A stretch of 64,000 nucleotides of DNA from Hyphomicrobiales bacterium (GTDB lineage: Bacteria > Pseudomonadota > Alphaproteobacteria > Rhizobiales > Rhizobiaceae): NCBI GenBank assembly GCA_900469965.1, contig UBZP01000017.1, positions 124,001-188,000 on the forward strand, written 5' to 3'. Positions 29,294-45,500 of this stretch are shown in pieces. The first letter of the stretch is position 1. Each line of letters opens with the position of its first letter. Under the pieces are notes generated by a model. That model did no database searches. It saw only the letters and a list, made by a program, of their open reading frames with translations, and was not told the DNA's origin. Position numbers and translations under genes: made by a program.

Positions 29294-29313
29294 GATTTGT
29301 CCGACATCAAATC
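29294..29313. promoter_or_regulatory. Crp/Fnr-family (FNR/DNR/NnrR-like) binding site
   Basis: A perfect 20 bp inverted repeat GATTTG-N8-CAAATC, with the core TTG-N8-CAA at 29297-29310 reading TTGTC-CGAC-ATCAA. The FNR consensus is TTGAT-N4-ATCAA, so the right half is perfect and the left matches three of five. It is centred about 72 bp upstream of the GTG of the small protein gene that opens the metal/NnrS block. Confidence 0.65.
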
Positions 29314-29375
29314 GCCGGTTGCCGGTCGTGCTATCAGAGCGATGTCGGAGAAACGCCAAGTAGGGACGTGACCTC

Positions 29376-29747
29376 GTGAGCGCTTTTGTCAGGATCCTGT
29401 GCGCGATCGCGCTGCTGTTCGTGGGCCTTGCCCACCAGCCGCCGGCCGCCGCCATGGTCGGCGACCAGCACCTCGACCTTGCTGCCTATGTCCTTCCGGA
29501 CGGCACGCTTGCGGATCTCTGCCTCTCCGGCGACGGCAGCCATGACGACGAGCCGATGCCCGCGGAGCTCTGCGACGCGTGCCTGATCGCATCGGCCATC
29601 CTTCTGCCCGCGCCGGCGGACGTCTCGGGTCAGCCGCTCGCAATCGTCCTGGCGGTTCTCGCGCCGCCGCAGGTCGAGATCTCCCATCGCCGGGTCTTCC
29701 CGCCGAATGCCGCGCCTCGGGCGCCGCCCCTCCTGTCCTTGGCCTGA
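29376..29747 (+). CDS. Small exported protein, DUF2946-like
   Basis: 123 aa, GTG start. An N-terminal signal helix (MSAFVRILCAIALLFVGLA) is followed by a Cys-rich middle: Cys in ADLCLSGDG, then LCDACLIASAILLPAP, and a Pro-rich tail. Size, layout and the C-x-x-C next to the LLPAP motif resemble DUF2946 proteins that sit beside TonB-dependent copper/iron receptors. It could bind a metal in the periplasm; function is unproven. First gene of the block downstream of the FNR-type site. Confidence 0.6.
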   Translation: MSAFVRILCAIALLFVGLAHQPPAAAMVGDQHLDLAAYVLPDGTLADLCLSGDGSHDDEPMPAELCDACLIASAILLPAPADVSGQPLAIVLAVLAPPQVEISHRRVFPPNAAPRAPPLLSLA

Positions 29748-29961
29748 ACGCGCTCCTGACCGCCGATTGCCTGCGGTCGAGCGTGTTCGGTGATCGCCGC
29801 GCTTTGCCTTGCACCGGCCGGAGCACGTAATTGTGCCGCCGAAGCGGAGTGAAAGCGGGCGCGTTCGCACACGGGTTCCAGTGCTTTCGCGCAAGCGACG
29901 TCGTCGACGCGGTCGCGATGGCACCCGAATTCCCGATCCATTCTCCTGACAGGACAGACCC

Positions 29962-31065
29962 ATGAACAAGTTCCTCATCGCCACCGCCATCGCCCTCATC
30001 GGGCTCGTCAACCCGGCCTTGGCCGACATCACGCTGACCGACGCCAAGGGGCGCACGGTCAGCCTGCCGAAGCCGGCCGAAAGGGTCGTGCTGGGCTTCT
30101 ACTACGAGGATTATCTGGCCGTGGCGGGGCCCGGCGCCATCGACAAGGTCGTGGCGCTGTCCCTCTCCACCTGGAAGGACTGGCGGCCCAACCAGTTTGC
30201 AGCCTATGAAAAGGCGCTTCCCGGCCTTGCTGCCATCCCGGACGTCGGCAATACCGAAGACAACACCTTCTCGATCGAGAAGGTCATCGCGGCCAAGCCC
30301 GATCTCCTGATCCTTGCGGCATGGTCCTACGACGCCCTCGGCGAGAGCATCAAGCAGATCGAGGCTGCCGGCATCCCGGTCGTCACGCTGGACTACAATG
30401 CACAGACCGTGGAGAAGCACGTCGCCTCCACGATCGCGCTCGGCAAGGCGATGGGCGCCGAAGACCGGGCCGAGAAACTCGCCGCCGGCTACCAGCGGGC
30501 GATGGCCGATATCGAACGGCGTATCGAGCAAGCCGGCCCGACCCAAAAGAAGGTCTATGTCGAACTGGCGCAGAAGGGACCGGCCGAGACCGGCAACTCC
30601 TATGGCGACAGCATGTGGGGCGCGCTGGTCGACAGGCTCGGCGGCCACAACATCGCCAAGGGACAGGTCGGCAACTGGGGGCCGCTCAATCCGGAGTATG
30701 TCCTGGCCCAGAGGCCGGACCTGATCTTTCTCGCCGGCTCCGAATGGGTCAACAAGCCGCAGTCGGTGCAGGTCGGCTTCGGCGCCGATCCGGCGGTGAC
30801 CGAGGAGCGAATCGCCGCCTACCTGACGCGTCCCGGCTGGTCGGATCTTCCCGCCGTCCAGAACGGCGGCGTCCATGCCATCTACCACGGCGGCGCCCGC
30901 ACCATCTCCGACTATGTCTACGCCCAGTACATCGCCAAGCAGCTCTACCCGGATGCCTTCAAGGACGTCGATCCGGCGAAAAACCTCGAAGACTTCTATC
31001 GCGCCTGGCTGCCGATCGAGGCGAAGGGCGTGTTCGTCGTCCCCTACAAGGGCGTGGGCCAATGA
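29962..31065 (+). CDS. ABC transporter substrate-binding protein, iron-siderophore/cobalamin family
   Basis: 367 aa. Signal peptide MNKFLIATAIALIGLVNPALA, then a FecB/BtuF-like fold: TLTDAKGRTVSLPKPAERVV at the start of the mature protein and DLLILAAW.YD. near residue 120. It should deliver a ferric-chelate or similar compound to the permease encoded next (ATGA overlap at 31062-31065). No substrate-specific residue is obvious. The long gap before it (29748-29961) holds nothing I recognise. Confidence 0.9.
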   Translation: MNKFLIATAIALIGLVNPALADITLTDAKGRTVSLPKPAERVVLGFYYEDYLAVAGPGAIDKVVALSLSTWKDWRPNQFAAYEKALPGLAAIPDVGNTEDNTFSIEKVIAAKPDLLILAAWSYDALGESIKQIEAAGIPVVTLDYNAQTVEKHVASTIALGKAMGAEDRAEKLAAGYQRAMADIERRIEQAGPTQKKVYVELAQKGPAETGNSYGDSMWGALVDRLGGHNIAKGQVGNWGPLNPEYVLAQRPDLIFLAGSEWVNKPQSVQVGFGADPAVTEERIAAYLTRPGWSDLPAVQNGGVHAIYHGGARTISDYVYAQYIAKQLYPDAFKDVDPAKNLEDFYRAWLPIEAKGVFVVPYKGVGQ

Positions 31066-32123
31066 GCCCTTCTGCCTCGGATCACCTTGGAAGGATGCGC
31101 GGCGAATACCGCCGCGCATCCCTCAGGAAGACGGCCGGGCTGGTGGCCGCTGCCGGACTGCTTGCCGTCCTGATGCTGCTGGACCTGACGACCGGTCCGT
31201 CGGGGCTGCCATTGACGGATGTCTGGACCGGTCTTGCGGCCGGCCCGGCCGGCGACGACCGCATGGTGGCGACCATCCTGTGGCAGTTGCGCATGCCGCA
31301 GACGGTCATGGGCATGCTGGTCGGCGCCTGCCTCGGGCTTGCCGGATTGCAGATGCAGACCATTCTCGACAATCCGCTCGCAAGCCCCTTCACCCTCGGC
31401 TTCTCGGCCGCGGCCGGCTTCGGGGCAGCGCTGGCGATCATGTTCGGCGGTCTTCTGCCGGTGCCCGGCTTCCTCGTCGTCCCGGCCGCCGCCTTCGCCA
31501 TGACGCTCGTCGCCTCGGCGCTGGTCTATCTGCTTGCGACGCTCCGTGGTGCCTCTCCGGAAATTCTCGTCCTCGGCGGCATCACCGTGTCCTTCTTCTT
31601 CCAGTCGCTGCAGTCGCTGATGCAGTTCCTCGCCTCGCCGGAGGTCCTGCAGCAGATCGTCTTCTGGCTGTTCGGCAGCCTCCTGAAGGCGACATGGACC
31701 AGCGTGCAGGTGACGGCGGCCCTTCTGCTGCTGTGCCTGCCCTTCGTGTTGCACAACGCCTGGGCGCTGACGGTGCTGAAACTCGGCGACGCCAATGCCC
31801 GCAGCCTCGGCCTGACGGTCGACCGCGTCCGCCGCCAGACCTTCCTGCTGGTGGCGCTTCTGACGGCCGCTGCCGTGTCCTTCGTCGGCACGATCGGTTT
31901 CGTCGGCCTGATTGCCCCGCATGCCTGCCGCATGATCGTCGGCGAGGACCATCGCTTCGCCCTCCCGCTCTCGGCGGTCATGGGCGCGATCATCCTGGTG
32001 GGCGCCTCCGTCGTCGGCAAGATCATCTCTCCTGCCGCCGCCATTCCCGTCGGCATCGTCACGGCCATCGCCGGGATCCCGATGCTCTTTGCGGTCATCA
32101 TTCACAAAGGAAGCCGTCCATGA
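31062..32123 (+). CDS. FecCD family ABC transporter permease
   Basis: 353 aa, around ten hydrophobic segments. NPLASPFTLGFSAAAGFGA and FVGTIGFVGLIAPHACR are FecCD/BtuC hallmarks. The start overlaps the binding-protein stop by ATGA, and its own stop overlaps the ATPase start, so the three parts are tightly coupled. It forms the inner-membrane channel of an iron-chelate type importer, probably as a homodimer since no second permease gene is present. Confidence 0.93.
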   Translation: MSPSASDHLGRMRGEYRRASLRKTAGLVAAAGLLAVLMLLDLTTGPSGLPLTDVWTGLAAGPAGDDRMVATILWQLRMPQTVMGMLVGACLGLAGLQMQTILDNPLASPFTLGFSAAAGFGAALAIMFGGLLPVPGFLVVPAAAFAMTLVASALVYLLATLRGASPEILVLGGITVSFFFQSLQSLMQFLASPEVLQQIVFWLFGSLLKATWTSVQVTAALLLLCLPFVLHNAWALTVLKLGDANARSLGLTVDRVRRQTFLLVALLTAAAVSFVGTIGFVGLIAPHACRMIVGEDHRFALPLSAVMGAIILVGASVVGKIISPAAAIPVGIVTAIAGIPMLFAVIIHKGSRP

Positions 32124-32875
32124 ACGACGCTCTCATCCTTGACGACGTTTCTATCCGCCTCGGCCGCCAGGTCATCCTCGAAGGGATCAATGCGCGGCTC
32201 GCCGCCGGTCAGATCGTCGGCCTCGTCGGCCCCAACGGCACGGGCAAATCGAGCCTGCTCGGCGCGATCACCGGCATGATCCCCTTCAAGGGCGAGATCA
32301 CCTTCGCCGGCCGGGGCATCGATCTGCGCGGGGTGGGCTACATGCCCCAGCATGCCGCGGTGCGGGCGCAACTGAGCGTCCTTGAGGTCGTGCTTCTCGG
32401 GCGGCACGAAGGCCTCGGTTGGCGGATGGACCCCGGACTGCTCGCTGCGGCCACCGACATCCTGGCCGACTTCGGCATCGCCGAGCTTGCGCCGCGGCCG
32501 ATCCACACGCTGTCGGGCGGCCAGCAGCAGCTGGTGCTGCTGGCGCAGCGCATGCTGCGGGAGCCGCGGCTCCTGCTGCTGGACGAAGCGACCAGCGCCC
32601 TCGACCTCGCGCATCAGATGAAGGTCTTCGATCTCCTGAAGGCCTATGTCCGGCGCACCGGCGCGCTCGTCATGATCGCGATCCACGACCTGAACCTCGC
32701 CGCCCGCCATGCGAACAGCGTGCTCATGCTCAGGCGCGGCGGGCTTGCCGGCTCCGGGCGCTTCGGCGATGTCGTCACCCCTTCGGCGCTGCGATCGGTC
32801 TATGGCGTGGAAGCGGAGTTCGTCACCGGCCCGACCTCGGGCACGGTGGTGCTGCCCGTCTGCGCGGTCGCCTGA
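32120..32875 (+). CDS. ABC transporter ATPase, iron-siderophore type
   Basis: 251 aa. Walker A GPNGTGKSS (37-45), signature LSGGQQQLVLLAQ, Walker B LLLLDEATSALD and the switch His in AIHDLNLAARH are complete. It couples ATP hydrolysis to transport by the FecCD permease. ATGA overlap at 32120-32123, with AAAGGAAG just upstream. Confidence 0.93.
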   Translation: MNDALILDDVSIRLGRQVILEGINARLAAGQIVGLVGPNGTGKSSLLGAITGMIPFKGEITFAGRGIDLRGVGYMPQHAAVRAQLSVLEVVLLGRHEGLGWRMDPGLLAAATDILADFGIAELAPRPIHTLSGGQQQLVLLAQRMLREPRLLLLDEATSALDLAHQMKVFDLLKAYVRRTGALVMIAIHDLNLAARHANSVLMLRRGGLAGSGRFGDVVTPSALRSVYGVEAEFVTGPTSGTVVLPVCAVA

Positions 32876-33132
32876 GGCCCTGCTGCGGGACGAAGGGTGG
32901 ACTGAGACCGGAATCGCGGCGCTGTTTGCCCTGGCGCAAAGAACGGCCTTCCCGCGTCCACTACCGGCGAAGCATGAAACGCGAACCGGTCTACATTGCC
33001 AGACTGACACGGCCCCGCTGCTTCCTGCGCAAACGCTGTCGGAAGCCGCAAGGCCGGGAGTGTGAGGCATAGGTTCTCAGCTTTCCCGCTTCCCTGCGGC
33101 TTGCATCAAGTTTGTGGGGAAAGGAAGCAACG

Positions 33133-35418
33133 ATGTTTCGAACAATGTGCCGCGCATCCCGGGGCGGGCGGCATCAGTCCGGATGGATGAACTGCAGAGC
33201 CGGCCTGTCACGGGTCGCCATTCTTCTCTTGTCGTCGACGACGCTCTGCGGCACGGAGGCCCTCGCGCAGTCGGCCGGGCCCGGCGCGCCGACGGTGCTC
33301 GATCCGATCGTCATCCAATCCGGCTGGGACAATTCGATCGACTACATTCGTGAACGGCTGGCCGTCCTTCCCGGCGGCGTGGCCCTCGTGGAGGCGGATC
33401 TCTACGACAACACGGTCGCACCGACGGTTTCCGACGCGCTCGCGGGCGTTCCCGGCGTCGTCGTGCAGAACTTCTTCGGGGCGAACGACCAGCCGCGCAT
33501 CCAGATCCGCGGGTCCGGCCTGCAGCAGAACCCGGTCGAGCGCGGCATCCTGATGCTGCGCGACGGCCTGCCGATCAATCGCGCCGACGGGTCCTACATC
33601 GTCGGCTTCGCCAACCCGAACCAGGCGCAGGCGATCGAGGTCTACCGCGGCTATCTCGCAAACCGGCTGGGCGCCACCGTCCTCGGCGGTGCGCTCAACT
33701 TCATGTCGCCGACGGCATCGACCGCGCCGGGAACGCAACTCGTCGTGGGCGGCGGCAGCTTCGGCCAGGCCGGCGCATCCGGAAGAACCGGTTTCGACGG
33801 CGAGCGCCTCGATGCGTCGATCTATTTCGACGTGACCCGGCGCGATGGTTTCCGTGACTACAACAGCTCCGAACGCGTCGATATCGGCGGCAACATCGAG
33901 GCCGAGCTGTCGGACATCACAACGACGCGGCTCTTCTTCGGCTACACGGATCTCGGATTCGACGTTCCCGGCCCGATCAACAAGGCCGCGCTGGAATCCG
34001 ACCCGAAGCAGATTTCCAAGGGCCCGATCGTGACGCCGACGGGTGTCATCAACCCCGGACCGAACGTCGTTCGTGACCGGCCGCGCCGGGACGCAAGCCA
34101 GTACCTGATCGGCTCCCGCACGACGTTCGATCTCGGCGATCACCTGATCGACGTCGGCCTGGGCTATACCTATACCGACGACACCTTCCGCTTCCCGATT
34201 TCGGCGGGCATCCGCGACACCACGGGCGGCGACTTCACCGGTCTGCTGCGCTATGCCTATGCGCCGGACGACGCCAGGCTGTTGCCGTTGTTCGAAACGA
34301 CGGCGCAGTACACGATCGGCTCGGCGGATCGCAGCTACTACCAGAACGAGGCCGGCCGGCAGGGCGCCCAGTTCGGCGAAAACGAACTCGATGCCTCGAC
34401 GCTTTCGCTCCACTCGGGCTTCAACATCCCGCTCGGGGCGGCATGGACCGTGTCCCCGGGGCTGTCCTATGCGCACGCGACCCGCAAGAACACCGATACC
34501 TTCGGCGCGCCCACCCGTCCGACGATCGCGTTCAATCCGGCCAATCCGGGCATGCCGCTGCCGAACGGCGCCGTGCCGACGGTGAGCACCGACTACGACC
34601 GCAGCTATCATGCCTGGACCCCGAGCCTTGCGGTGAGCGTCGAGCCCGTCCCCCAACAGTTTCTGTTTGCCGCGGTCAGCCGCAGCTTCGAGCCGCCCAC
34701 GCATGACGACCTGCTGGCGACGATCAACGGCACGCCGAACAGCAGCCCCGGTCGCCCCGCGCCCGGCGACCCGTCATTGCCGGCAGCGGTCTTTTCGACA
34801 CCGGATCTCGAAGCCCAGACCGCAACGACGCTGGAGTTCGGCTGGCGTGGCAGCGTCGGCGAATTCGGCTGGGATGCGACGACCTACTATTCCTGGATCG
34901 ACAACGAACTGCTGAGCCTTCGCGATGCCACCGGCGCTCCGCTCGGGGCGGTGAATGCGGACGAGACGACGCATTTCGGCGTCGAACTCGGCCTCACGGC
35001 CGAACTGGGATACGGCGTCACCGGACGGCTCGCCTACACCTACCAGGACTTCCGCTTCGACGACGACCCGCTTCGCGGCGACAACCGCCTGGCCGGCGCG
35101 CCTCGCCATGTGATCAATGCGGCTGCGACCTATCAGGCGACCGACGCCTGGTCGGTGGCGGCAAACATCAACTGGGTGCCGGACAAGACGCCTGTCGACA
35201 ACATGAACACGCTCTGGGCCGATCCCTATGTCGTCGTCGATCTGGGAACCGAATACCGGATCAACGAGCGGGTGTCCGTCTTCGGCCAGATCACGAACGT
35301 GTTCGACGAGAAATACGCCTCGTCGACCCTGATCGTCGACCAGGCGACCCCCGACCAGGCAGCCTTCCTCCCCGGCGACGGACGCGGGTTCTATGCGGGC
35401 CTGAAGACCAGCTTCTGA
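33133..35418 (+). CDS. TonB-dependent outer-membrane receptor
   Basis: 761 aa from the ATG at 33133, preceded by AAGGAAG; a GTG 21 bases upstream is the alternative. After a signal region ending in ALAQ, a TonB-box-like DPIVIQSG precedes a plug (VSDALAGVPGVVVQNFFG, RIQIRGSGLQQNPVERGI, ANRLGATVLGGALNF) and a 22-stranded barrel ending in the aromatic YAGLKTSF. It takes up a large ligand across the outer membrane, here most likely the ferric or copper chelate that the adjacent FecB-type importer carries inward. Substrate unknown. Confidence 0.93.
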   Translation: MFRTMCRASRGGRHQSGWMNCRAGLSRVAILLLSSTTLCGTEALAQSAGPGAPTVLDPIVIQSGWDNSIDYIRERLAVLPGGVALVEADLYDNTVAPTVSDALAGVPGVVVQNFFGANDQPRIQIRGSGLQQNPVERGILMLRDGLPINRADGSYIVGFANPNQAQAIEVYRGYLANRLGATVLGGALNFMSPTASTAPGTQLVVGGGSFGQAGASGRTGFDGERLDASIYFDVTRRDGFRDYNSSERVDIGGNIEAELSDITTTRLFFGYTDLGFDVPGPINKAALESDPKQISKGPIVTPTGVINPGPNVVRDRPRRDASQYLIGSRTTFDLGDHLIDVGLGYTYTDDTFRFPISAGIRDTTGGDFTGLLRYAYAPDDARLLPLFETTAQYTIGSADRSYYQNEAGRQGAQFGENELDASTLSLHSGFNIPLGAAWTVSPGLSYAHATRKNTDTFGAPTRPTIAFNPANPGMPLPNGAVPTVSTDYDRSYHAWTPSLAVSVEPVPQQFLFAAVSRSFEPPTHDDLLATINGTPNSSPGRPAPGDPSLPAAVFSTPDLEAQTATTLEFGWRGSVGEFGWDATTYYSWIDNELLSLRDATGAPLGAVNADETTHFGVELGLTAELGYGVTGRLAYTYQDFRFDDDPLRGDNRLAGAPRHVINAAATYQATDAWSVAANINWVPDKTPVDNMNTLWADPYVVVDLGTEYRINERVSVFGQITNVFDEKYASSTLIVDQATPDQAAFLPGDGRGFYAGLKTSF

Positions 35419-35440
35419 CGACCGTTCCTTCCGTCCGCAT

Positions 35441-35473
35441 GCGGCGGCGTGGCCCCTTGTGCCGCGCCGCCGC
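35441..35473. repeat. Strong GC hairpin downstream of the TonB receptor gene
   Basis: GCGGCGGCG (35441-35449) pairs with CGCCGCCGC (35465-35473), with a further GGC/GCC pairing inside. It lies 22 bp after the receptor stop. The following bases (CTGCTTGCGTTTTCG) contain a broken T-run, so partial termination between the receptor and the second importer is possible. Confidence 0.55.
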
Positions 35474-35557
35474 CCTGCTTGCGTTTTCGCAAAGATATCC
35501 CGAGCCCCAGGCCTTATTCATGAGATGCACGGTCATGTTAAATCAGCAGGTTGCCCT

Positions 35558-36583
35558 ATGAGCCGGAAACATCTCTCGCCGACGTCCTCTCCGCGACCGA
35601 CCGTATCCGGCGTTTCCAGGCGCGCCGTCTGCGCAGGCTTGGCCTCGAGCCTTGCGATGCCGTGGATCGGACGCGCTGCCGCCGCTCCGCTCGCAGCGCT
35701 GGAACTCCATGGGCCGCCGGCAAGCCCGTCGATCACGCTTGCCTATGCGGCCGGTGCCGGACTGCTGCGGAGCGTTGCCGACAAGGTCTCCTTCAAGGTC
35801 TGGCGAACGCCCGATGAAATGCGTGCCGGCCTGACCTCGGGCGGCATGCAGGCTCTCGTCATGCCGGTGACCGCGGCCGCCAACCTGCACAAGCGGGGCC
35901 TGGGCGTCAGGCTCGCCAACGTGATGACGAACGGCCTTCTCTACGTCATCTCGTCCGACGACACGCTCGGGACCATCGCGGATCTGAAAGGGCGCAGGAT
36001 CACAGTGCCGTTTCCGAACGATACCCCGGAGGTGATTTTCGATGCCGTCCTGGCCCACAACGGCCTGACGGAAAACGACGTCACGGTCGAGACGGCGGGA
36101 ACGCCGATCGAGGCAATCCACATGCTGCTCGCGGGCAGGATCGACATTGCCCTGGTGCCGGAACCGGCCGCGACGGCTGCGATCCTCAAGGCGGCGGCAT
36201 CGGGCAGGGCCATCCATCGCGCGATCGATATGCAGGTCGAGTGGGGCAAGGTGACGGGCCTCGGCCCGATCATGCCGCAGGCGGGCCTCGCGTTCACCGA
36301 CGCCTTCCTCCAGCAGCATGCCGACATGGTGGAGCCGATGCTCGCGGCAATCGCAGAGGCGACGGCCGCCGTCACCGCACGTCCTTCGCTGGCTGCCGGC
36401 CACGCGGCCTCGGCGCTGGAACTGCCCTGGCCGGTCATCGAGAAGTCGATCCCCTTCTCCAGTCTCGTCGCCACGCGGGCGACCGATGCGCGGACGGGGC
36501 TCGAAGCCCTGTTCTCGGCGATCGCCGCGGTCAATCCGAAAATCATCGGCGGCGGCATGCCCGACACGTCGCTCTATCTCTGA
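35558..36583 (+). CDS. ABC transporter substrate-binding protein, NMT1/SsuA-like, Tat-exported
   Basis: 341 aa from the ATG at 35558, AGCAGG upstream. SRRAVCAGLASSLAMPWIG is a Tat-like signal. The mature part (LKGRRITVPFPNDTPEVIF, AIHMLLAGRIDIALVPEPAA) has the two-lobe fold of nitrate/sulfonate/thiamine-precursor binding proteins. It is followed by its permease (broken) and ATPase and by two NnrS genes. It could carry a metal chelate, sulfonate or other small anion; not determined. Confidence 0.85.
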   Translation: MSRKHLSPTSSPRPTVSGVSRRAVCAGLASSLAMPWIGRAAAAPLAALELHGPPASPSITLAYAAGAGLLRSVADKVSFKVWRTPDEMRAGLTSGGMQALVMPVTAAANLHKRGLGVRLANVMTNGLLYVISSDDTLGTIADLKGRRITVPFPNDTPEVIFDAVLAHNGLTENDVTVETAGTPIEAIHMLLAGRIDIALVPEPAATAAILKAAASGRAIHRAIDMQVEWGKVTGLGPIMPQAGLAFTDAFLQQHADMVEPMLAAIAEATAAVTARPSLAAGHAASALELPWPVIEKSIPFSSLVATRATDARTGLEALFSAIAAVNPKIIGGGMPDTSLYL

Positions 36584-36592
36584 GGCCTTCCG

Positions 36593-37402
36593 ATGTCGGC
36601 GGCTGCTCATCGCACAGGACGGCTGGGGAAATTCCTCTGGTCCGGTTGGGCGGGCGTGGCCGGGCTCTCGGTCTTCGCCGCCGCCTGGCAACTGGGCCAC
36701 GAGGCCTATGGCAGCTTCATCCTGCCTTCGCCGGCCGAAACGTTTTTCACGCTGACCGTGATCCTCGGTGAGCCGGAGGCCTGGCGGCTGGCGGGCATGA
36801 CGGCGGCACGGGCCGTGGCCGGCTTCGTCGTGGCCAGCATTTCCGGAACGGTTGCGGGAGCGGTTGCCGGCTATCATCCGGCCGTCCTCAGGCTTGCCCG
36901 GCCGCAGCTCACCTTGATGCTGGGGGTGCCGCCGATCGCATGGATCGTGCTTTTGATGATCTGGCTCGGCACCGGCGGCGCCACGGTGATCGCGACCGCG
37001 GCCATCGCCTGCCTGCCGGTTGTCTTCATCGGCGCCTCGGAGGGGATCGCGGGACGCGATCGCGGCCTGGACGACATGGCGCGCGCTGCCGGCGTCTGAC
37101 CGGTCGCACGGCTCTTCAGGATCGTTTTCCGGCAGATGCTGAACACGCTTTTCCCGGCGCTCGTCATGGCGCTGGGGACGGCCTTCAAGGCCGCGATCAT
37201 GGCCGAACTCCTCGCAAACGCTGGCGGAGTCGGCGAGGCGCTGGCGGTCGCGCGCGCCAATCTGGACGTGGCCGAAGCCCTGGCATGGATCCTGATTTCC
37301 GTCACCGCGCTCATCGCCATCGAATACGGGCTGTTGCAGCCGCTGCGGGCCGAGCTCGAGACGTGGCGCGAGGCGGCGCGTCCATGGGGCGTGAAGCGAT
37401 GA
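36593..37402 (+). pseudogene. ABC transporter permease, interrupted by an in-frame TGA
   Basis: 270 codons encode a complete SsuC/TauC-type permease if codon 169 is read through. The frame starts at the ATG at 36593 and is open to the TGA at 37097-37099, then continues in the same frame without a shift (PVARLFRIVFRQMLNTLFPA...) to 37402. The TGA lies in the EAA loop (AAGV-stop-PVARLF), the part that contacts the ATPase. One base change from TCA, CGA or GGA would explain it. The flanking binding protein and ATPase are intact, so the loss is recent or a sequencing error; a truncated 168-residue product would lack the last helices. Confidence 0.85.
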
Positions 37403-38148
37403 GCGTCCTTGTGCTGGAAAATGTCGGCCATGCCTTCCTCGGCCGCACCGTCCTTGAAGAGATCGATCTTGCGATCGCCGCGGGCGAACTCGTGGCGCTG
37501 GTCGGGCCATCGGGATCGGGAAAGAGCACGCTCGCCCACATCGCCGCCGGGCTCGTGGAGCCGAGGAAAGGGCGGGTGACGCGAAACTATCGCCGGCATG
37601 CCGTCGTTTTCCAGGAGCCGAGGCTGATGCCCTGGGCCACCGCCGGCGACAACATCGCACTCGGTCTTGCGCCGTCCTCCGCCGGCCGGCGTCAGCGCCG
37701 GCTGCAACTCCAGTCCGTCGCATCGAGGGTTTCGCTCAACGCCGAGGATCTTGCGAAATTTCCCTCGCAGCTGTCGGGCGGAATGCGCCAGCGTGTCGCG
37801 ATCGCCAGGGCGCTCGTGGCCGATCCGGACTTTGTCTTCTTCGACGAACCGTTCACGGCCCTGGACGTGGCGCTGAAGCGGCGGATGCAGGACCTCGTCA
37901 TCGAGACGGTGGCCCATTCCGGGCTTTCCAGCCTCTTCATAACCCATGACCTGGCCGAGGCCGTTCGTATCGCGCATCGTATCGTCGTGCTGGACCGAAG
38001 CGGCCGCGGCATCGCCGGCAGCCGCGAGATCCCGCTTTCACCGGGCCTGCGCGACGACCGGACGGTGTTCGAGATCGCGCAGGCATTACTTGCCGGCGAT
38101 GCGCTCTTTGCCCATGTCAATGAAATCGACGAGAGGATGCGCGCATGA
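37399..38148 (+). CDS. ABC transporter ATPase, nitrate/sulfonate type
   Basis: 249 aa. Walker A GPSGSGKST (36-44), signature LSGGMRQRVAIARAL, Walker B VFFDEPFTALD and the switch His of FITHDLAEAV are present, matching SsuB/TauB. The start overlaps the permease stop (ATGA at 37399-37402), which keeps translation coupling intact past the internal stop only if ribosomes reach it. It would power the importer whose permease is broken. Confidence 0.92.
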   Translation: MSVLVLENVGHAFLGRTVLEEIDLAIAAGELVALVGPSGSGKSTLAHIAAGLVEPRKGRVTRNYRRHAVVFQEPRLMPWATAGDNIALGLAPSSAGRRQRRLQLQSVASRVSLNAEDLAKFPSQLSGGMRQRVAIARALVADPDFVFFDEPFTALDVALKRRMQDLVIETVAHSGLSSLFITHDLAEAVRIAHRIVVLDRSGRGIAGSREIPLSPGLRDDRTVFEIAQALLAGDALFAHVNEIDERMRA

Positions 38149-39362
38149 CCGTCGCGATCCTCCAGCCGGCCGCGCGCCGGCGCAACCTGCTCACTATTGT
38201 GTCCGACGAGGGCCTGCGGCTGTTCTTTCCGCTGGCGGCCGTGCACGCGGCGCTGTGGCCACTGCTCTGGGTCGTTGCCTGGCGCTTCAGTCTGCCGATG
38301 ACCGACACGACGCTGCCCGGCCAGTGGCCTGCGCAGGAAATGATCATCGGTTCCTTCGGCGCAGCGCTGATCGGTTTTCTCACCTCCGCCCTTCCGGAGT
38401 GGACCGACAGCCCGCGCATGAAGGGGCGGCCGCTGTTCCTCCTCGCCGCCGTCTGGGCCGTGGGACGCCTCGCCGGTTTTGTGGGTGCCGAGCCGTTCAT
38501 CGTCGTCGCCGCCGTGGCCGACCAGGCCTGGCTGCTGTTCCTTCTGGTCTACACTCTCTCGACCTCCTGGCGCCGGCGGACCACGGCATTTGCAGGGTTC
38601 GTCCTCTTTCTCGCCGCGCTGGCCGTCAGCGCCGGCGCCTTGCGGCTCGCCATGCTGCGCGACGACGTCGATGCCGGCGAGACCGCCATCCGCATCGGCG
38701 CCTTCGCCTTCCTCGGCCTGCTCGCCCTGGCGCTCACGCGCATCACGGTGCCGATCACCAACCGCGTGCTCGACCCGACCGAAGCGACCTCGCCCTATCG
38801 GCCGCATCCGGGCCGGGTCAATCTCGCCCCCGGCCTGGTCGGGCTGCTGCTGGTCGGCGAATTCGCCGGCCTGTCCGAACCCGTGCGCGGCTACCTGATG
38901 ATCGCGGCCGGCGCTGCCTTTCTCGATCGCGTCGCCGAGGGCTTCATCGGACGGGAAGCGATACAGGCCGAAATCCTGGTGCTGACCTCGTCCTGCGGCT
39001 TCGCCGGAGCGGGGCTCCTGCTGGGCGGACTGTCGCTGATCGGCCTGCCGCTCTCGTTTGTCGGCGCCGTCCACCTGATGATGATGGGCGGGCTTGGCAT
39101 CGGCGTGCTTGCGGTCCTGTCGATCGCCGGCCTGCTCCACACCGACCGGCCGCTCCGGTTTGCCCGGCAGACAAAGGCGGCCATCGGCATCATGGTCGCA
39201 GCCGTGATGCTTCGCCTCGCGCCGGAATTCGCGCCCGGCCTCGATCTGCCCGGCGGGCCGCACGGTGCGGCGGCAGTCCTCTGGGCGCTCTCGTTCGTCC
39301 TGTGGCTGGGTGTCTACGTTCCCTGCCTCTGGCGCGCCAATCCAAGCCCCGAAGGAAACTGA
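38145..39362 (+). CDS. NnrS family protein
   Basis: 405 aa with about 12 hydrophobic segments. PAQEMIIGSFGAALIGFLTSALPEW corresponds to the conserved WHAHEM...GFLLTA core of NnrS, here with Gln-Glu in place of the usual His-rich motif. NnrS is a heme/copper membrane protein linked to nitrite and NO metabolism. It overlaps the ATPase stop by ATGA. The paralogue that follows keeps the His motif. Confidence 0.82.
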   Translation: MTVAILQPAARRRNLLTIVSDEGLRLFFPLAAVHAALWPLLWVVAWRFSLPMTDTTLPGQWPAQEMIIGSFGAALIGFLTSALPEWTDSPRMKGRPLFLLAAVWAVGRLAGFVGAEPFIVVAAVADQAWLLFLLVYTLSTSWRRRTTAFAGFVLFLAALAVSAGALRLAMLRDDVDAGETAIRIGAFAFLGLLALALTRITVPITNRVLDPTEATSPYRPHPGRVNLAPGLVGLLLVGEFAGLSEPVRGYLMIAAGAAFLDRVAEGFIGREAIQAEILVLTSSCGFAGAGLLLGGLSLIGLPLSFVGAVHLMMMGGLGIGVLAVLSIAGLLHTDRPLRFARQTKAAIGIMVAAVMLRLAPEFAPGLDLPGGPHGAAAVLWALSFVLWLGVYVPCLWRANPSPEGN

Positions 39363-39365
39363 CCC

Positions 39366-40571
39366 ATGGCGACCCTTGCCCCCACCAAGCCGTCATCCGC
39401 GATCAAGGTCTTCTTTTCCGCAGGCTTTCGTCCCTTCTTTCTCTTCGGGGCGCTCCAGCCGGCGGTGATGATCGCGCTCTGGGTGCCGTGGTTTCTCGGT
39501 TTCCTGCATCTGCCGTCGGCCCTGCCGCCCATAGCCTGGCATCAGCACGAACTTCTGTTCGGCTATGTGCCGGCCGTCATCGCCGGCTTCCTGCTGACCG
39601 CGGTTCCGAACTGGACCGGCCGCAAGCCGCTTTCCGGCTGGCCGCTCTTGTTGCTCTTTGCCCTTTGGCTGGCCGGCCGCCTGGCGACCGCCTGTTCGGA
39701 GCAGATCGGCATAAATTTGGCCTTGATCGTTGCCGCTGCCTTCCTCCCGGTTCTGGCCGTGATCGTCCTCCGCGAACTGGTGCTTTCCGGCAACCGGCGC
39801 AACTACAAGGTCGTGCTGGTGCTCTCCGCCCTGTCCGTCTCCGAGTTGCTGTTCTTCTACGAGGTGGATCGCTTCGGCTTCGTCGAAATCGCCGATCGGC
39901 TGGCGATCGCCACGATCATCCTGCTCATCGCCATCATCGGCGGGCGCATCATCCCGATCTTCACTGCCAACTGGCTGCGCCAGCGCAAACCCGGACGCCT
40001 GCCGCCGGCCTTCGACCGGTTCGATCTGGCCTGCATGGTTCTCACCTTTGTTGCGCTCGCCGCATGGCCCGTCGCCGCGCGCGTCGAACCCATCGTGTTG
40101 CCAACCGGCATGCTGATGCTGCTTGCAGGCTCGGCGCAGTTCGCACGTCAATGGCGATGGGCGCCCTTCAGGACCTTTGCCGAGCCGCTCGTCACGATCC
40201 TGCACCTTGCATTCCTGTTCGTGCCGGTCGGGTTCCTGCTCTTGGGGGTTGCGCTGTGGCTGGACGATGCCGGCCTGCAGACGGCGGGCATCCATGCCTG
40301 GACGGTGGGTGCCATCGGGGGCATGACGCTGGCGGTGATGACGCGCGCCACACGCGGACACAGCGGCCAGGCGCTGCACGCACCCCTGTCGACGGTTCTG
40401 GCGATCTATGCACCGGTCATGGCCGCAGCCTTCGCCCGGGTCGCCTCGGCGCTCATGCCGGAGCAGACAATGCTGCTGCTGCCGCTCGCAGGCGTCTGCT
40501 GGAGCGTCGCGTTCCTCGGATTTGCGCTGCTCTACGGACCGATGCTGCTCGGCCGCCGATCACCGCCATAG
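39366..40571 (+). CDS. nnrS: NnrS family protein (second, canonical copy)
   Basis: 401 aa. WHQHELLFGYVPAVIAGFLL and TAVPNWTGRKPL are the hallmark region of NnrS, with conserved histidines; WTVGAIGGMTLAVMTRATRG near the C-terminus is also typical. It starts 3 bp after the first NnrS gene with AAGGAA upstream. Family members relieve nitrosative stress on metal centres and are regulated by NnrR/FNR-type factors, which fits the palindrome at 29294. Confidence 0.9.
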   Translation: MATLAPTKPSSAIKVFFSAGFRPFFLFGALQPAVMIALWVPWFLGFLHLPSALPPIAWHQHELLFGYVPAVIAGFLLTAVPNWTGRKPLSGWPLLLLFALWLAGRLATACSEQIGINLALIVAAAFLPVLAVIVLRELVLSGNRRNYKVVLVLSALSVSELLFFYEVDRFGFVEIADRLAIATIILLIAIIGGRIIPIFTANWLRQRKPGRLPPAFDRFDLACMVLTFVALAAWPVAARVEPIVLPTGMLMLLAGSAQFARQWRWAPFRTFAEPLVTILHLAFLFVPVGFLLLGVALWLDDAGLQTAGIHAWTVGAIGGMTLAVMTRATRGHSGQALHAPLSTVLAIYAPVMAAAFARVASALMPEQTMLLLPLAGVCWSVAFLGFALLYGPMLLGRRSPP

Positions 40572-40585
40572 GCAATAGGCCCGCC

Positions 40586-41254
40586 TCAGGCCCCACGCGG
40601 CCGCATGCCTTCGGCAATCATGGCGAAGCAGCGTCGCAGATAGGCGGGGCGGTCGTCTCCGCCCGGCCATTGCGGAGCATCTGTGGCCTTCAGCGACATC
40701 GCCCCGAACACGACGTCCATCAGCATCCTGGCTGCGACATCGGCATCGGGCACGACCAGGCGCCCCCGGGCCTTCTGCCTGTCGAACCAGGCGGCCAGGA
40801 GCTTGTGGGCATGTTGCGGGCCTTCTGCGTGAAAGACCGTCGACAGTTCCGGAAACTGGCGGCTTTCGACCAGAAGCATGGTCATCAACGCATCGCGTTG
40901 CCGCGTCGCCTCCTGGTCGAGATCGATCTGGAAGATCCGGCCGAGCGCCTCTTCCAGCGGCATGTCGTCGTAGTCGCCGGGCAGCGCCAGCATGCTCTGC
41001 CGGTGCAGGGCGACGACGGCGGAGAAGAGATCGGTCTTGCCGGGAAAGAACCGGTAGATCGTGCTCAGGGACATCTGCGCGGCGGCGGCCACGTCGCCCA
41101 TCGTCGTCCGTGCATACCCTCTTTCCAGGAGACACGTCCATGCCGCCCTGGTCACCGCTTCCTTCTGCGCGGCGTCCGAGGCGACCTTCGGCCGACCGCG
41201 CCGGCGGCGCGTCGACAAGTGCCCCTGGCCCGGCCCTGCACGCATGCTCGTCAT
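40586..41254 (-). CDS. TetR/AcrR family transcriptional regulator
   Basis: 222 aa. A basic N-terminus (STRRRRGRPK) precedes the helix-turn-helix TTMGDVAAAAQMSLSTIYRF; the C-terminal ligand domain contains VVPDADVAARMLMDVVFGAM. It is divergent from the RND pump genes and should repress them until a toxic compound binds. Two perfect palindromes in the shared promoter are the likely operators. 14 bp separate its stop from the convergent nnrS stop. Confidence 0.9.
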   Translation of the reverse strand: MTSMRAGPGQGHLSTRRRRGRPKVASDAAQKEAVTRAAWTCLLERGYARTTMGDVAAAAQMSLSTIYRFFPGKTDLFSAVVALHRQSMLALPGDYDDMPLEEALGRIFQIDLDQEATRQRDALMTMLLVESRQFPELSTVFHAEGPQHAHKLLAAWFDRQKARGRLVVPDADVAARMLMDVVFGAMSLKATDAPQWPGGDDRPAYLRRCFAMIAEGMRPRGA

Positions 41255-41261
41255 CCCCGAA

Positions 41262-41288
41262 TTGACAACGCTACCGCCTCACAATAAT
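41262..41288 (+). promoter_or_regulatory. Sigma-70-like promoter candidate for the RND operon
   Basis: A perfect -35 TTGACA at 41262-41267 and an AATAAT-type -10 near 41283-41288 (spacing about 15-16). The palindrome at 41290-41303 lies directly downstream of it, a normal place for a repressor. Confidence 0.5.
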
Positions 41289-41289
41289 C

Positions 41290-41340
41290 GTAATCACAAT
41301 TACTGTAAATATCGCGGTGCCGTTTCGACGACTGAAACGG
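41290..41340. promoter_or_regulatory. Two TetR-type operator candidates
   Basis: First: GTAAT-CACA-ATTAC, a perfect inverted repeat at 41290-41303. Second: CCGTTTC-N7-GAAACGG, a perfect 21 bp palindrome at 41320-41340. Both lie between the divergent TetR and RND adaptor genes. The second has the length and arm spacing typical of AcrR-like operators. Confidence 0.6.
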
Positions 41341-41376
41341 TGGCGGTGACCAAACGTGAACGAGGTTGTCCACGGC

Positions 41377-42576
41377 ATGAGACTGGCAAGAAAACCGGGC
41401 GCGCTCGCAGCGCTTCTCCTCCTCGTGGCCTGCAGTCCGCAGGAAGGGCAGGCCCCGCCGGCCCCGCCGAAGATCGAGGTGGGATACGTCACGCTCAAGC
41501 CGCAATCCGTGCCGCGGACGATCGACCTGCGCGGGCGGGTCGTTGCCTTTGCGACCGCCGAGGTTCGCCCGCAGGTCAACGGCATCGTCCGCAAGATCGC
41601 CTTCGCCGAGGGCAGGGAGGTGAAGGCGGGCGACGTGCTCTACGAGATCGACGACGCAAAGTTCAAGGCGGCCTTCGAAGCCGCCGAGGCGGCGCTGAAG
41701 AAGGCCGAGGCGGTGACGACCGGGGCGCAGACCACCTATGACCGCAACCGCACCCTGCTCGAGACGCGGGCGGTCAGCACCCAGACGCTGGACGATTCCC
41801 AGACCGCCCTGCTGCAGGCCGAGGCCGACCAGGAAGCGGCCAAGGCGGACCTGGAGACGGCCCGCATCAATCTCGACTATGCCACGATCCGCGCGCCGAT
41901 CGGCGGCGTGATCGGCGTGTCGAACGTCAGCGTCGGCGCGCTGGTCACCGAGAACCAGACGGATGCGCTGGCCACCATCCGCCAGGTCGATCCCATCCAT
42001 GTCGATCTCGTCGATTCCAGCGCCAACTTCCTGCGGATCCGCGAGGAGGTGCGGTCGGGGCGGCTGAGCCGGAAACCGGGCACGCCGATGCCGGTGACGC
42101 TGACGCTGGAGAACGGCACGCGCTATGACACGCAGGGACAGATATCGCTGATCGACATGGTCGTCGGCCAGTCGACCGGCACGTTCACGGTGCGCGCGAC
42201 GTTTCCGAACAAGGGGCGGATGCTGATCCCCGGCATGTTCGTTTCCGCCACGGTCGATCTCGGCACCATGGCCGGCGCGTTTCTCGTACCGCAGCGGGCG
42301 GTGACGCGCGGCGACGACGGCAAGGCGACCGTCTACCTCGTGACGGCCGAGGGCAAGGCGCAGCAGCAGCAGGTCACCACGAGCGGCACGGCCGGAAACG
42401 ACTGGATCGTGACCGACGGGGTCAAGGACGGCGACCGCCTGATCGTCGACGGCTTCCAGAAGATCTCCGACGGCAGCGCGGTGACGCCGGTCGAAGCCGC
42501 CATCGACGACGATGGCGTGGTCCCGCAGGACATCGAGACGCAGGCGGCGCAGACCGGCAAGGGGGCGGGCCAGTGA
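41377..42576 (+). CDS. RND efflux periplasmic adaptor (membrane-fusion protein)
   Basis: 399 aa from the ATG at 41377. LALLLLVAC-type lipobox with Cys19 predicts a lipoprotein anchored in the inner membrane. AEVRPQVNGIVRKIAFAEG is the lipoyl half-motif; the EAAEAALKKAEAV region forms the coiled-coil hairpin; DYATIRAPIGGVIG is the second lipoyl half. A GTG 21 bases upstream is an alternative start. It joins the RND pump (GTGA overlap at 42573-42576) to an outer-membrane channel that is not encoded here. Confidence 0.92.
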   Translation: MRLARKPGALAALLLLVACSPQEGQAPPAPPKIEVGYVTLKPQSVPRTIDLRGRVVAFATAEVRPQVNGIVRKIAFAEGREVKAGDVLYEIDDAKFKAAFEAAEAALKKAEAVTTGAQTTYDRNRTLLETRAVSTQTLDDSQTALLQAEADQEAAKADLETARINLDYATIRAPIGGVIGVSNVSVGALVTENQTDALATIRQVDPIHVDLVDSSANFLRIREEVRSGRLSRKPGTPMPVTLTLENGTRYDTQGQISLIDMVVGQSTGTFTVRATFPNKGRMLIPGMFVSATVDLGTMAGAFLVPQRAVTRGDDGKATVYLVTAEGKAQQQQVTTSGTAGNDWIVTDGVKDGDRLIVDGFQKISDGSAVTPVEAAIDDDGVVPQDIETQAAQTGKGAGQ

Positions 42577-45500
42577 CCCTCTCTTCGCCACGCAACGCAC
42601 TCGCCAGCTTCTTCATCGCTCGCCCGGTCTTTGCGATCGTCCTTGCGATCGCGACGATGCTGGCCGGGGTGATGGGAATCTATTCCCTCTCCATCTCGCA
42701 GTATCCGGACATCGCCCCGGTGACGGTGCGCGTCAGCGCCACCTATCAGGGGGCGACCGCCGAGGCGGTCGAGAACTCCGTGACGAAGAAGATCGAGAGC
42801 GTCATGACCGGCCTCGACGGCCTTCTCTACATGGAGTCCACGTCGAGCACCGGTTCGGCGTCGATCTCGCTCACCTTCGCCAACGGGACCGATCCGGAGA
42901 TCGCGCAGGTGGAGGTGCAGAACAAGCTGTCGCGGGTGGAATCGCAGCTGCCGGAATCCGTCCAGGACCAGGGGGTGCAGGTCAACCGCTCGCCATCGGG
43001 GATCCTGATGATCGGCAACATCATCTCGCGCGACGGCCGCTACACCTCCGACCAGCTCTCCGACATCATGTCCAGCCAGATCGAGGAACGCATCGAGCGG
43101 CTGGACGGCGTCGGCTCGGTGCAGGCGTTCGGCTCGGGCTATGCCATGCGCATCTGGCTCGACCCGGCCCTGATGGAAAAGTACGAGCTCGTTCCCGGCG
43201 ACGTCACCGCTGCGATCGGGGCGCAGAACGTCCAGGTCGCCGCGGGTTCGATCGGGGCGACGCCCGTCGTCAAGGGGCAGCAGCTGAAGGCGAGCATCAT
43301 CGCGCGCACGCAGATGACCTCGGTGGACGAGTTCGAGCGCATCATCCTGAAGACGGCCTCGGACGGGGCGGTGGTGCGCCTGGCGGACGTGGCGCGCGTG
43401 GAGATCGGGCTCGAGACCTATGGCCAGAGCTCGACCTTCAACGGCATGCCGGCTGCGGGCTTCGGCGTCCAGCTGGCATCCGGCGCCAACGCCATTTCGA
43501 CCGCGCAGCTCGTCCACGCCGAACTGGACAGCCTGGCGGGGTCGCTTCCGGAGGGCGTGGAGATCGCCTATTCCTACGAGACCACGCCGTTCGTCGAACT
43601 GTCGATCGAGAAGGTGGTGCACACGCTGATCGAGGCGATCGTGCTCGTCTTCGTGGTGCTTCTGCTGTTCCTGCAGAACCTGCGGGCGACCATCATTCCG
43701 ATGATCGCCGTTCCCGTCGTGCTCCTGGGCACGTTCGGCGTCCTCGCCGCGCTCGGCTATTCGATCAACATGCTGACGATGTTCGCGATGGTGCTGGCGA
43801 TCGGCCTTCTGGTCGACGACGCCATCGTCGTGGTGGAAAACGTCGAGCGCATCATGCGCGAGGACAAGGTGTCGGCGCGCGAGGCGACGGAGCGGTCGAT
43901 GGGCGAGATCACCGGAGCGCTGATCGGCATCGCCCTGGTGCTGACGGCCGTCTTCATCCCCATGGCGTTCTTCTCCGGCTCGGTCGGCGTCATCTACCGG
44001 CAGTTCTCGGTCACGATCGCCAGCGCGATGCTGCTGTCGGTGCTCGTCGCCGTCATCCTGACGCCGGCGCTTTGCGCGATGATCCTGAAGCCCGCCCACG
44101 GCGGCCCGATCGCCCGCTGGCTCGGCTGGTTCGACAGGGGGTTCGACCGCGCCACCGGCCGCTATGCCGCGGCGGTCGGCTGGCTGGTCGGGCGTCCGCT
44201 GCGCGTGCTGGCCGTGTTCGGGGTGCTGTTTCTGGCCGCCTATGGTCTCTATGCGAAGCTGCCCACCTCGTTTCTTCCGGAGGAGGACCAGGGTGTTCTG
44301 ATGACCCAGATCACGCTGCCCTCGGGCGCCAATGCCGCCCGCACCCAGGCCGTGATCGACATGGTGCGGGACTACTACCTGAACGACGAGAAGGAGGCCG
44401 TGCAGAGCGTGTTCATGACGCTCGGATTCGGCTTCGGCGGCAGCGGCGAGAATGCCGCGATGGGGTTCGTGCGGCTGAAGGACTTCGACCAGCGCACGGA
44501 CAGCCGGCTCTCCGCCGCAGCCGTTCAGCAGCGCGCCTCGGCCCATTTCCGCAAGATCCGCGACGCCGAGGTCTTCGTTCTCGCTCCCCCGGCGATCCAT
44601 GGCCTCGGCCAGAGCAGCGGCTTCTCGATGTATCTCGAGGACACGGCCAACCGGGGGCGCGACGCGCTGATCGACGCCAGCAACAGGCTGGCCGACAACG
44701 CCCAGTCGAATGCCGTCGTCGCCGATATGCGCGGCAACACCCGCACCCTGGAGGCGCAGCTCAAGATCGACATCGACCAGCAAAAGGCGAGCGCGCTCGG
44801 CGTCAGCCTCAGCGACCTGAACAGCCTGATCACCACCGCCTTCTCCGGCACCAATGTCAACGACTTCGTCTACAAGGGCGAGATCAAGCCGGTCTATGTC
44901 CAGGCGGACGCGCCCTTCCGCATGCAGCCGGACGACGTCAGCCGGTGGTCGGTACGCAACGGCGAGGGCGAGATGGTGCCGTTCAGCGCGTTCGCCACCA
45001 CCGAATGGGTGCAGGGCTCGCCCTCCCTGGCCCGCTTCAACGGCACGGCGGCGATCGCCATGGACGGAGCGGCCGCGCCGGGCGCGAGCTCCGGCGATGC
45101 GATGACGGAGGCCGAGCGGCTCGTGGCCGCGCTCGACGGCGGCTATACGGCGTCCTGGTCCGGGCTGTCCTATCAGGAGCGGCTGGCGGGCTCGCAGGAG
45201 GCGCTTCTGTATGCGGTGTCGCTCGTCGTCGTCTTTCTGTGCCTCGCCGCCCTCTACGAGAGCTGGTCCATTCCCTTCTCCGTCATCCTCGCCGTGCCGG
45301 TCGGCGTCTTCGGCGCGCTGTTGTTCGCCGTCGTCTTCGGTCAGTCGAACGACGTCTATTTCAAGGTGGGATTGCTGACGACCATCGGGCTGACGGCGAA
45401 GAACGCCATTCTGATCGTGGAATTCGCAAAGGACCTGATGGCGCGCGGAAAGACGGCGGTCGAAGCGGTGACGGAGGCCGCACGCCTCAGGCTGCGGCCG

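Follow-up and report, generated by a model that had tools for sequence, protein, structure and literature searches.

A CruR-like upstream ORF with a FecBCD-type importer and an NMT1-type importer with NnrS as two probable neighboring units in a Rhizobiaceae genome

The closest described counterparts of the locus analyzed here are the copper-responsive leader CruR of Bordetella pertussis and the NnrR regulon of alphaproteobacteria. CruR is an upstream open reading frame (uORF) encoding a DUF2946 protein whose nascent chain senses copper via a CXXC motif; relief of stalling at a RAPP motif lets Rho end transcription before the gene for a TonB-dependent receptor, the CXXC-RAPP spacing being 45 residues and the gap to the next gene 162 bp (PMC9426467). 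The consensus NnrR site of alphaproteobacteria is ctTTGcgnnnncgCAAag (PMC1274295). Here we describe a 64 kb stretch (hereafter, the window) of the 5.34 Mb genome of a Hyphomicrobiales bacterium (assembly GCA_900469965.1, contig UBZP01000017.1; contig 6:124001-188000 in our numbering), in which a plus-strand array of genes begins with a CruR-like ORF and ends with two nnrS genes.

This array most likely splits into two neighboring units, and we consider it probable that they are a CruR-type copper uORF with a FecB-FecCD-FecE importer (unit A, 29376-32875) and a TonB receptor gene followed by NMT1-type ATP-binding cassette (ABC) importer and NnrS genes under predicted NnrR control (unit B, 33133-40571). 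An earlier note on this DNA had instead read all these genes as one superoperon, a single module for metal uptake and nitric oxide (NO) response driven by an FNR- or NnrR-type site at 29294. All regulation and all operon borders discussed below are predicted from sequence.

Two neighboring units and the sites in front of them

The genome encodes NirK (547 bits), a second NirK-family protein, NorB, NosZ and four NnrS proteins, and the DNA-binding part of a Crp-family regulator lies 1.6 kb beyond nirK, a position that suggests NnrR. A matrix was derived from eight TTG-N8-CAA sites found in the regions that surround nirK/nnrS, nor and nos (another box, L175:6426, with 19.3 bits, was left out); loci and genomes are denoted here by L and G numbers. 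This matrix gives 22.2 bits at L179:11730, a site that was not in the training set and is located before the second NirK-family gene (104946 on contig 13 of G000). That gene, on a different contig from nirK (contig 25), is thus itself preceded by an NnrR-type site. When the 64 kb of the window are scanned, the best site (TGTTTGCCCTGGCGCAAAGA, 26.3 bits) precedes the TonB receptor gene and the second best (TGCTTGCGTTTTCGCAAAGA, 18.8 bits) precedes the NMT1 gene, followed by a third at 11.1 bits. Because each part of unit B has its own predicted NnrR box, the unit should be induced by NO along with nirK, nor and nos; a box before the gene, a regulator (of presumed identity) and the denitrification genes are all present in this genome.

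Similar sites recur before unit B in other genomes. Among 38 of the 40 NnrS-linked loci described below (L080, whose contig is as long as that of L036, and L093, with its divergent binding protein, were left out), TTG-N8-CAA is found within 400 bp upstream in 24, compared to 11.6% of control stretches (binomial P 6e-14, with relatedness ignored), and boxes of at least 12 bits in 18, compared to 6.1% of controls. In Rhizobium terricola and Ciceribacter, boxes stand before the receptor and NMT1 genes alike, as in the window.

The two units are also conserved separately. Homologs of the FecB-type binding protein of unit A (hereafter SBP2) were collected in 45 loci, none of which contains a match to NMT1, NnrS or a unit-B-type receptor, and a weak CruR-like ORF (hidden Markov model (HMM) E-value 0.005) is present in one unit-B locus, L048, about 8 kb beyond NnrS. 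Among the 19 genomes of the order with a full-length SBP2 match of at least 45%, the window's own included, two, G370 and the one with the window, possess an NMT1 gene as well, which is the chance level (P 0.72, 397 genomes). A joint module of A and B is therefore unsupported as a conserved system, and the adjacency of these particular units is probably local.

The earlier note was right that a palindrome with a TTG-N8-CAA core comes first and that the genes it named (DUF2946-like, FecB-type, TonB, NMT1-type and two NnrS) all lie on the plus strand. The palindrome has perfect 6+6 arms and ends 62 bp before the GTG start of the first ORF. Pfam recovers the named genes, with DUF2946 just under the cut-off, and also a permease and an ATPase for each importer. 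The common strand, the rarity of the palindrome and the recurrence of its right half, ATCAAATC, at a TTG-N8-CAA site on contig 9 (L178:4098), close to another Crp-family gene, would all fit a superoperon. So would the finding that 8 of the 40 NnrS-linked loci (L039, L064, L078, L081, L087, L088, L090 and L097; 796 kb for all 40) carry FecCD-type genes from other subfamilies within the 14-25 kb stretch that holds the NMT1-NnrS unit, compared to none of the 24 loci without NnrS (432 kb). The density of strong FecCD genes in the window's own genome (six genes in five places) predicts about one such stretch, so that pairing of the two kinds of importers may exceed accident. Nevertheless, one continuous operon is not confirmed: a gap of 214 bp follows the DUF2946 ORF, the FecE-like ATPase gene ends 257 bp before the receptor gene, and 139 bp separate the latter from NMT1. 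The last two gaps hold the far better-scoring boxes, whereas the remaining junctions are at most 9 bp apart or overlapping. The palindrome itself scores 4.9 bits with the matrix, a value reached by 19 positions of the window, itself included. Given the box scores, the gaps and the separate conservation of the units, we reject a single superoperon starting at 29294, which has little probability.

The TTG-N8-CAA core is about as common in the window as chance predicts (6 sites, 5.89 expected; about 0.012 expected in any 150 bp), and the genome has 423 of them, compared to 621 matches to the reversed control pattern. The complete 6+6 arms are rare: across the loci fetched they occur only in the window and in L127 (the same place as L108), likewise before a CruR-like ORF. 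With the arms in 1 of 25 CruR loci, and any TTG-N8-CAA upstream in 4 of 25 (controls, 5.3%), the palindrome is not conserved, in contrast to the boxes before unit B. Compared with the FNR site TTGAT-N4-ATCAA, it matches at 8 of 10 positions, the right half ATCAA being exact and the left half reading TTGTC. The palindrome may be a local FNR/FixK-type site, since its right half is exact and ATCAAATC recurs near a Crp-family gene. Of the proposed link between metal-type uptake and NO-linked genes, what stands is the adjacency, the predicted NnrR boxes and the presence of nirK, norB and nosZ, and gene order is kept inside each unit; a conserved joint order of A and B was not found.

Table 1. Coordinates of the features of units A and B in the window
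Feature	Position	Strand	Remarks
Palindrome GATTTG-N8-CAAATC	29294..29313	.	Half-matched, possibly of FNR/FixK type; precedes the cruR-like ORF
cruR-like uORF (DUF2946)	29376..29747	+	GTG start; CXXC, RAPP and Cys49
Intergenic region after the cruR-like ORF	29748..29961	+	214 bp
Unit A: FecB/Peripla_BP_2 binding protein (SBP2)	29962..31065	+	Candidate binder of copper or a copper chelate
Unit A: FecCD permease	31062..32123	+	Pfam
Unit A: ABC ATPase (FecE-like)	32120..32875	+	Pfam
NnrR-type box before the TonB receptor gene	32923..32942	.	Best in 64 kb; absent from the earlier note
Unit B: TonB-dependent receptor	33133..35418	+	Pfam
NnrR-type box before the NMT1 gene	35476..35495	.	Second best in 64 kb; absent from the earlier note
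Unit B: NMT1-type binding protein (P0001)	35558..36583	+	Pfam
Unit B: BPD permease	36593..37393	+	In-frame TGA at 37097-37099
Unit B: ABC ATPase	37399..38148	+	4 bp overlap with NnrS1
Unit B: NnrS1	38145..39362	+	Pfam
Unit B: NnrS2	39366..40571	+	Pfam

No riboswitch was found in the window at the Rfam gathering threshold; a sigma-70 scan of it found no promoter, and terminator-like sites numbered 10, close to the 6.7 of shuffled sequence. Directly after NnrS2, at 40586-45713, a minus-strand regulator-like ORF and then plus-strand ORFs resembling an RND efflux pair can be read by eye.

Unit A: the CruR-like ORF and the FecBCD-type importer

The protein encoded by the CruR-like ORF of the window consists of 123 residues and contains CXXC at residues 66-69 and RAPP at residues 115-118, with exactly 45 residues between them; its Cys49 probably equals the semiconserved cysteine of CruR. 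The ORF comes first in unit A, presumably first in its transcript as well, and is followed by a long gap (214 bp). By analogy with B. pertussis CruR, the element gating unit A is most plausibly a CruR-type copper uORF. When copper is scarce, the ribosome would stall at RAPP and transcription would continue into the importer genes; copper bound by the nascent CXXC would relieve the stall, and Rho would stop transcription within the intergenic region. C outnumbers G at the end of the ORF (29641-29778) and once more near the start of the following gene; a ribosome stalled at that ORF end could cover a Rho site.

SBP2 was searched for in 397 genomes of the order (24 with matches at E <= 1e-50), 385 of the class (17 at E <= 1e-70) and 398 of the phylum (13), the window's own being counted each time. 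Twenty order loci were fetched from the 24 genomes (the window's own, G024, G295 and G180 were left out), and 16 further loci from 15 genomes (L216 and L218 belong to one genome) bring the alphaproteobacterial set to 36; nine loci from outside this class complete the 45. In 14 of the 20 order loci, SBP2 is preceded by a CruR-like ORF in the same orientation: nine of these ORFs have the strict motif, and five, which have CXXXC or an incomplete cysteine pair, were detected only with an HMM trained on six sequences, of which five came from loci that it subsequently recovered. The motif was also identified before SBP2 in 11 of the 16 further loci, for a total of 25 of 36. In 2.62 million strand-bases of other loci (from unit B and the window's own genome) it has four matches. 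The motif behind these counts is looser than one that matches in the window only.

Between CruR and SBP2, copper genes intervene in 4 of the 36 loci, namely SCO1/SenC in L120 and, after a gene for a DUF2244 protein, DUF1775 with CopC-CopD in L134 (both by Pfam), and Sco in L217 and YcnI with CopCD in L132 (both by tblastn similarity). In the CopC-CopD locus, a Crp-family regulator gene follows directly after the SBP2-FecCD-FecE genes (L134:12430-13656). An alignment of SBP2 from the window and 18 loci shows invariant positions in 19 of 19 rows, among them Glu49, Trp71, Asn146, Gln148, His153, Met218, Trp219 and Arg313, which are absent from both outgroup rows (homologs with 33-34%). The recurrent CruR-like ORF, the intervening copper genes and these invariants suggest that the cargo of unit A is probably copper or a copper chelate, which the importer would carry over the inner membrane.

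Unit B: the NMT1-type importer and NnrS

NnrS1 and NnrS2 match the NnrS family (226.6 and 348.3 bits with PF05940, cut-off 28); a sequence search identified no solved structure related to NnrS2. Homologs of the NMT1 protein are present in 50 of the 397 order genomes (E <= 1e-20), the nearest named ones being from Rhizobium terricola (74%), Ciceribacter selenitireducens (71%) and Neorhizobium xiangyangii (69%). We compiled 64 NMT1 loci (40 fetched, 10 named and 14 annotated), with L055 taken at the NMT1 copy that follows NnrS and L045 and L046 being near-duplicates. NnrS adjoins the importer genes in 40 of the 64, that is, in 19 of the fetched, all 10 named and 11 of the annotated loci; these 40 include L093, whose binding protein is divergent, and L084, a metagenome-assembled genome in which no permease was detected. 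Pfam scans of naive ORFs in GC-rich loci came out blank for many entries, probably antisense or out-of-frame ORFs.

An overlap of 1 or 4 bp between the ATPase and NnrS genes is seen at 9 of the 12 junctions taken from annotated loci or the window. A TonB receptor gene on the same strand, inside the run or within 2 kb of it, is found in 15 of the 40 NnrS-linked loci, and its insertion between the permease and ATPase genes in Azospirillum (L086), apparently also in L084, ties the receptor to the importer. In Rhizobium SSA_523, unit B is located in a denitrification island with nirK, norCBQD-type genes and nnrU, and in Agrobacterium alongside nap and nor. The NMT1-type ABC importer with NnrS, often with a TonB receptor, spans Alphaproteobacteria to Campylobacterota. 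This recurrent linkage suggests that NnrS acts together with the importer, and in the window both the receptor gene and the NMT1-permease-ATPase-NnrS-NnrS operon would be induced by NO through their predicted boxes.

Among the columns conserved in at least 80% of 38 NMT1 protein sequences there is no His, Cys or Met, which makes a bare metal an unlikely cargo; an organic or metal-organic molecule appears most likely.

Two plasmid loci with related proteins deserve mention. In Paraclostridium (L098), a distant NMT1-type importer without NnrS is encoded near genes for a Crp/Fnr regulator, hcp and hemerythrin, again a nitrosative-stress setting. In Diaphorobacter (L095), a related binding protein gene without an annotated permease lies among genes for TonB receptors, a cupin and a CobN-like chelatase.

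Assessment and comparison with known systems

Several observations on both units weigh against the two-unit reading, and some of them favor other explanations; the FecCD-type genes near unit B, mentioned above, belong here as well. The DUF2946 match of the window ORF (E-value 2e-4, 22.5 bits) falls below the gathering cut-off of 23.7, which is a profile threshold and not a functional feature, and a genome-wide Pfam search did not report this ORF. No CruR-like ORF was found in 11 of the 36 alphaproteobacterial loci (in the order, these are L124, whose contig ends 283 bp upstream, L126, L133, L135 and the outgroups L137 and L138), the motif is absent from all nine loci from outside this class, and an intact CXXC is missing in 5 of the 25 CruR-like ORFs. 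DUF2946 genes are also found in zinc- and superoxide-linked clusters of Caulobacter (PMC4176598), and in L122 the unit-A ATPase gene is followed by one for a CobW-type GTPase; copper is therefore not certain for every member. Unit A might accordingly be read as an ordinary iron-siderophore importer, with a DUF2946 ORF in front of it that has no function or senses some other metal. Siderophore uptake is the best-known role of FecBCD-type transporters, and among the nearest solved relatives of SBP2 are 4mo9, the nearest, which is named only as a periplasmic binding protein, and 6b2x, which is of the iron/siderophore type. The recurrent CruR motif, the Sco, YcnI or CopC-CopD genes in four loci and the SBP2 residues missing from the two outgroup homologs speak against such an importer. 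With 11 receptor queries, none of the 45 loci yielded a TonB receptor next to SBP2, which counts both against our reading and against a siderophore system; we regard the latter as unlikely.

As for unit B, the matrix includes only eight boxes chosen by the analysts, with adjoining genes that are partly unannotated; among the 38 loci, 14 have no TTG-N8-CAA box within 400 bp and 20 remain below 12 bits. NnrS was not found in 24 of the 64 NMT1 loci, which are mostly those of more distant homologs, with L067, L070 and L073 cut by contig ends. Import of pyrroloquinoline quinone (PQQ) or a close relative by unit B is suggested by the nearest solved receptor, YncD/PqqU (E-value 3e-25, the next other than PqqU being at 2e-5), and by the AlphaFold model of the NMT1 protein (mean pLDDT 86.8), to which 3hn0 and then PqqT are nearest. 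However, the folds of TauA, Thi5 and SsuA score close behind, PqqT is not among the matches of the NMT1 sequence profile, and the receptor reaches 107.9 with the NCBIfam PqqU model against a cut-off of 1200. Moreover, the features of PqqU include, besides Arg304 and Arg365, the signature Tyr, Phe or Trp at position 99 (PMC12124388), and position 99 aligns with Pro134, invariant in 10 of 10 unit-B receptors aligned over this region; unit B is for this reason not filed as a PQQ system, an assignment that we deem very unlikely. A further concern is the in-frame TGA at codon 169 of the NMT1 permease, missing from the earlier note, an interruption seen in 0 of 11 relatives, owing to which the unit B importer may be inactive in this strain. 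Unit B could then be a decaying remnant with an importer pseudogene in which only NnrS matters, but downstream of the stop the reading frame remains open and resembles that of relatives, and the rest of the unit-B genes are open as well, so that the stop would be recent, an assembly error or read through; we view decay as possible, albeit somewhat unlikely.

The two-unit reading thus remains the one we prefer. Through the recurrent and often overlapping ABC importer, the little-understood NnrS gains a concrete partner and a testable question about cargo. Copper passage across the bacterial inner membrane is, to our knowledge, poorly known, and the putative CruR-gated FecBCD importer is a candidate for this role. 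It is plausible, albeit unsupported by co-occurrence, that A and B share a service to copper-dependent denitrification (NirK, NosZ, NnrS). A broader proposal would pair NnrS proteins with a dedicated uptake system that NO induces, and would make the CruR-gated FecBCD transporters a previously undescribed class of importers for copper or chalkophores across the inner membrane, the two standing side by side here to feed the copper enzymes of denitrification; it is offered tentatively and is rather doubtful as a whole. No paper title on an NnrS-linked NMT1/TonB importer or on a CruR-headed FecBCD importer was found in the literature covered, which was partial and included few subscription journals.

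Among the known systems, the NnrR regulon provides the context for unit B: the two boxes are close to the published consensus, nnrS is a classical target, and predictions for another genus include nosA, which encodes a copper receptor, whereas an operon of TonB receptor, NMT1-type ABC importer and NnrS is not mentioned in the accessible excerpts (PMC1274295). Like NosA/OprC, the window receptor is an outer-membrane receptor under predicted denitrification control; unlike them, it matches TIGR01778 only weakly (24.3 bits, cut-off 472.45), and identity with this copper receptor was rejected. PqqU is the closest solved receptor and PqqT among the closest binding-protein folds, with low sequence similarity and the diagnostic aromatic residue replaced by the invariant proline. 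For unit A, CutF of the cutFOG genes of Rhodobacter capsulatus is likewise a DUF2946-like copper-sensing ORF before copper genes, but it carries CXXXC and raises the production of a downstream oxidase with copper, whereas the window protein has the CruR pattern of CXXC and RAPP (PMC9973294). The closest parallel is cruR-bfrG-bp2921 of Bordetella, which shares with the window the DUF2946 ORF in first position, the CXXC and RAPP motifs 45 residues apart, the semiconserved cysteine and the long downstream gap; CruR precedes a TonB receptor and a PepSY protein, whereas the putative CruR of the window heads an inner-membrane ABC importer of the FecBCD type (PMC9426467).

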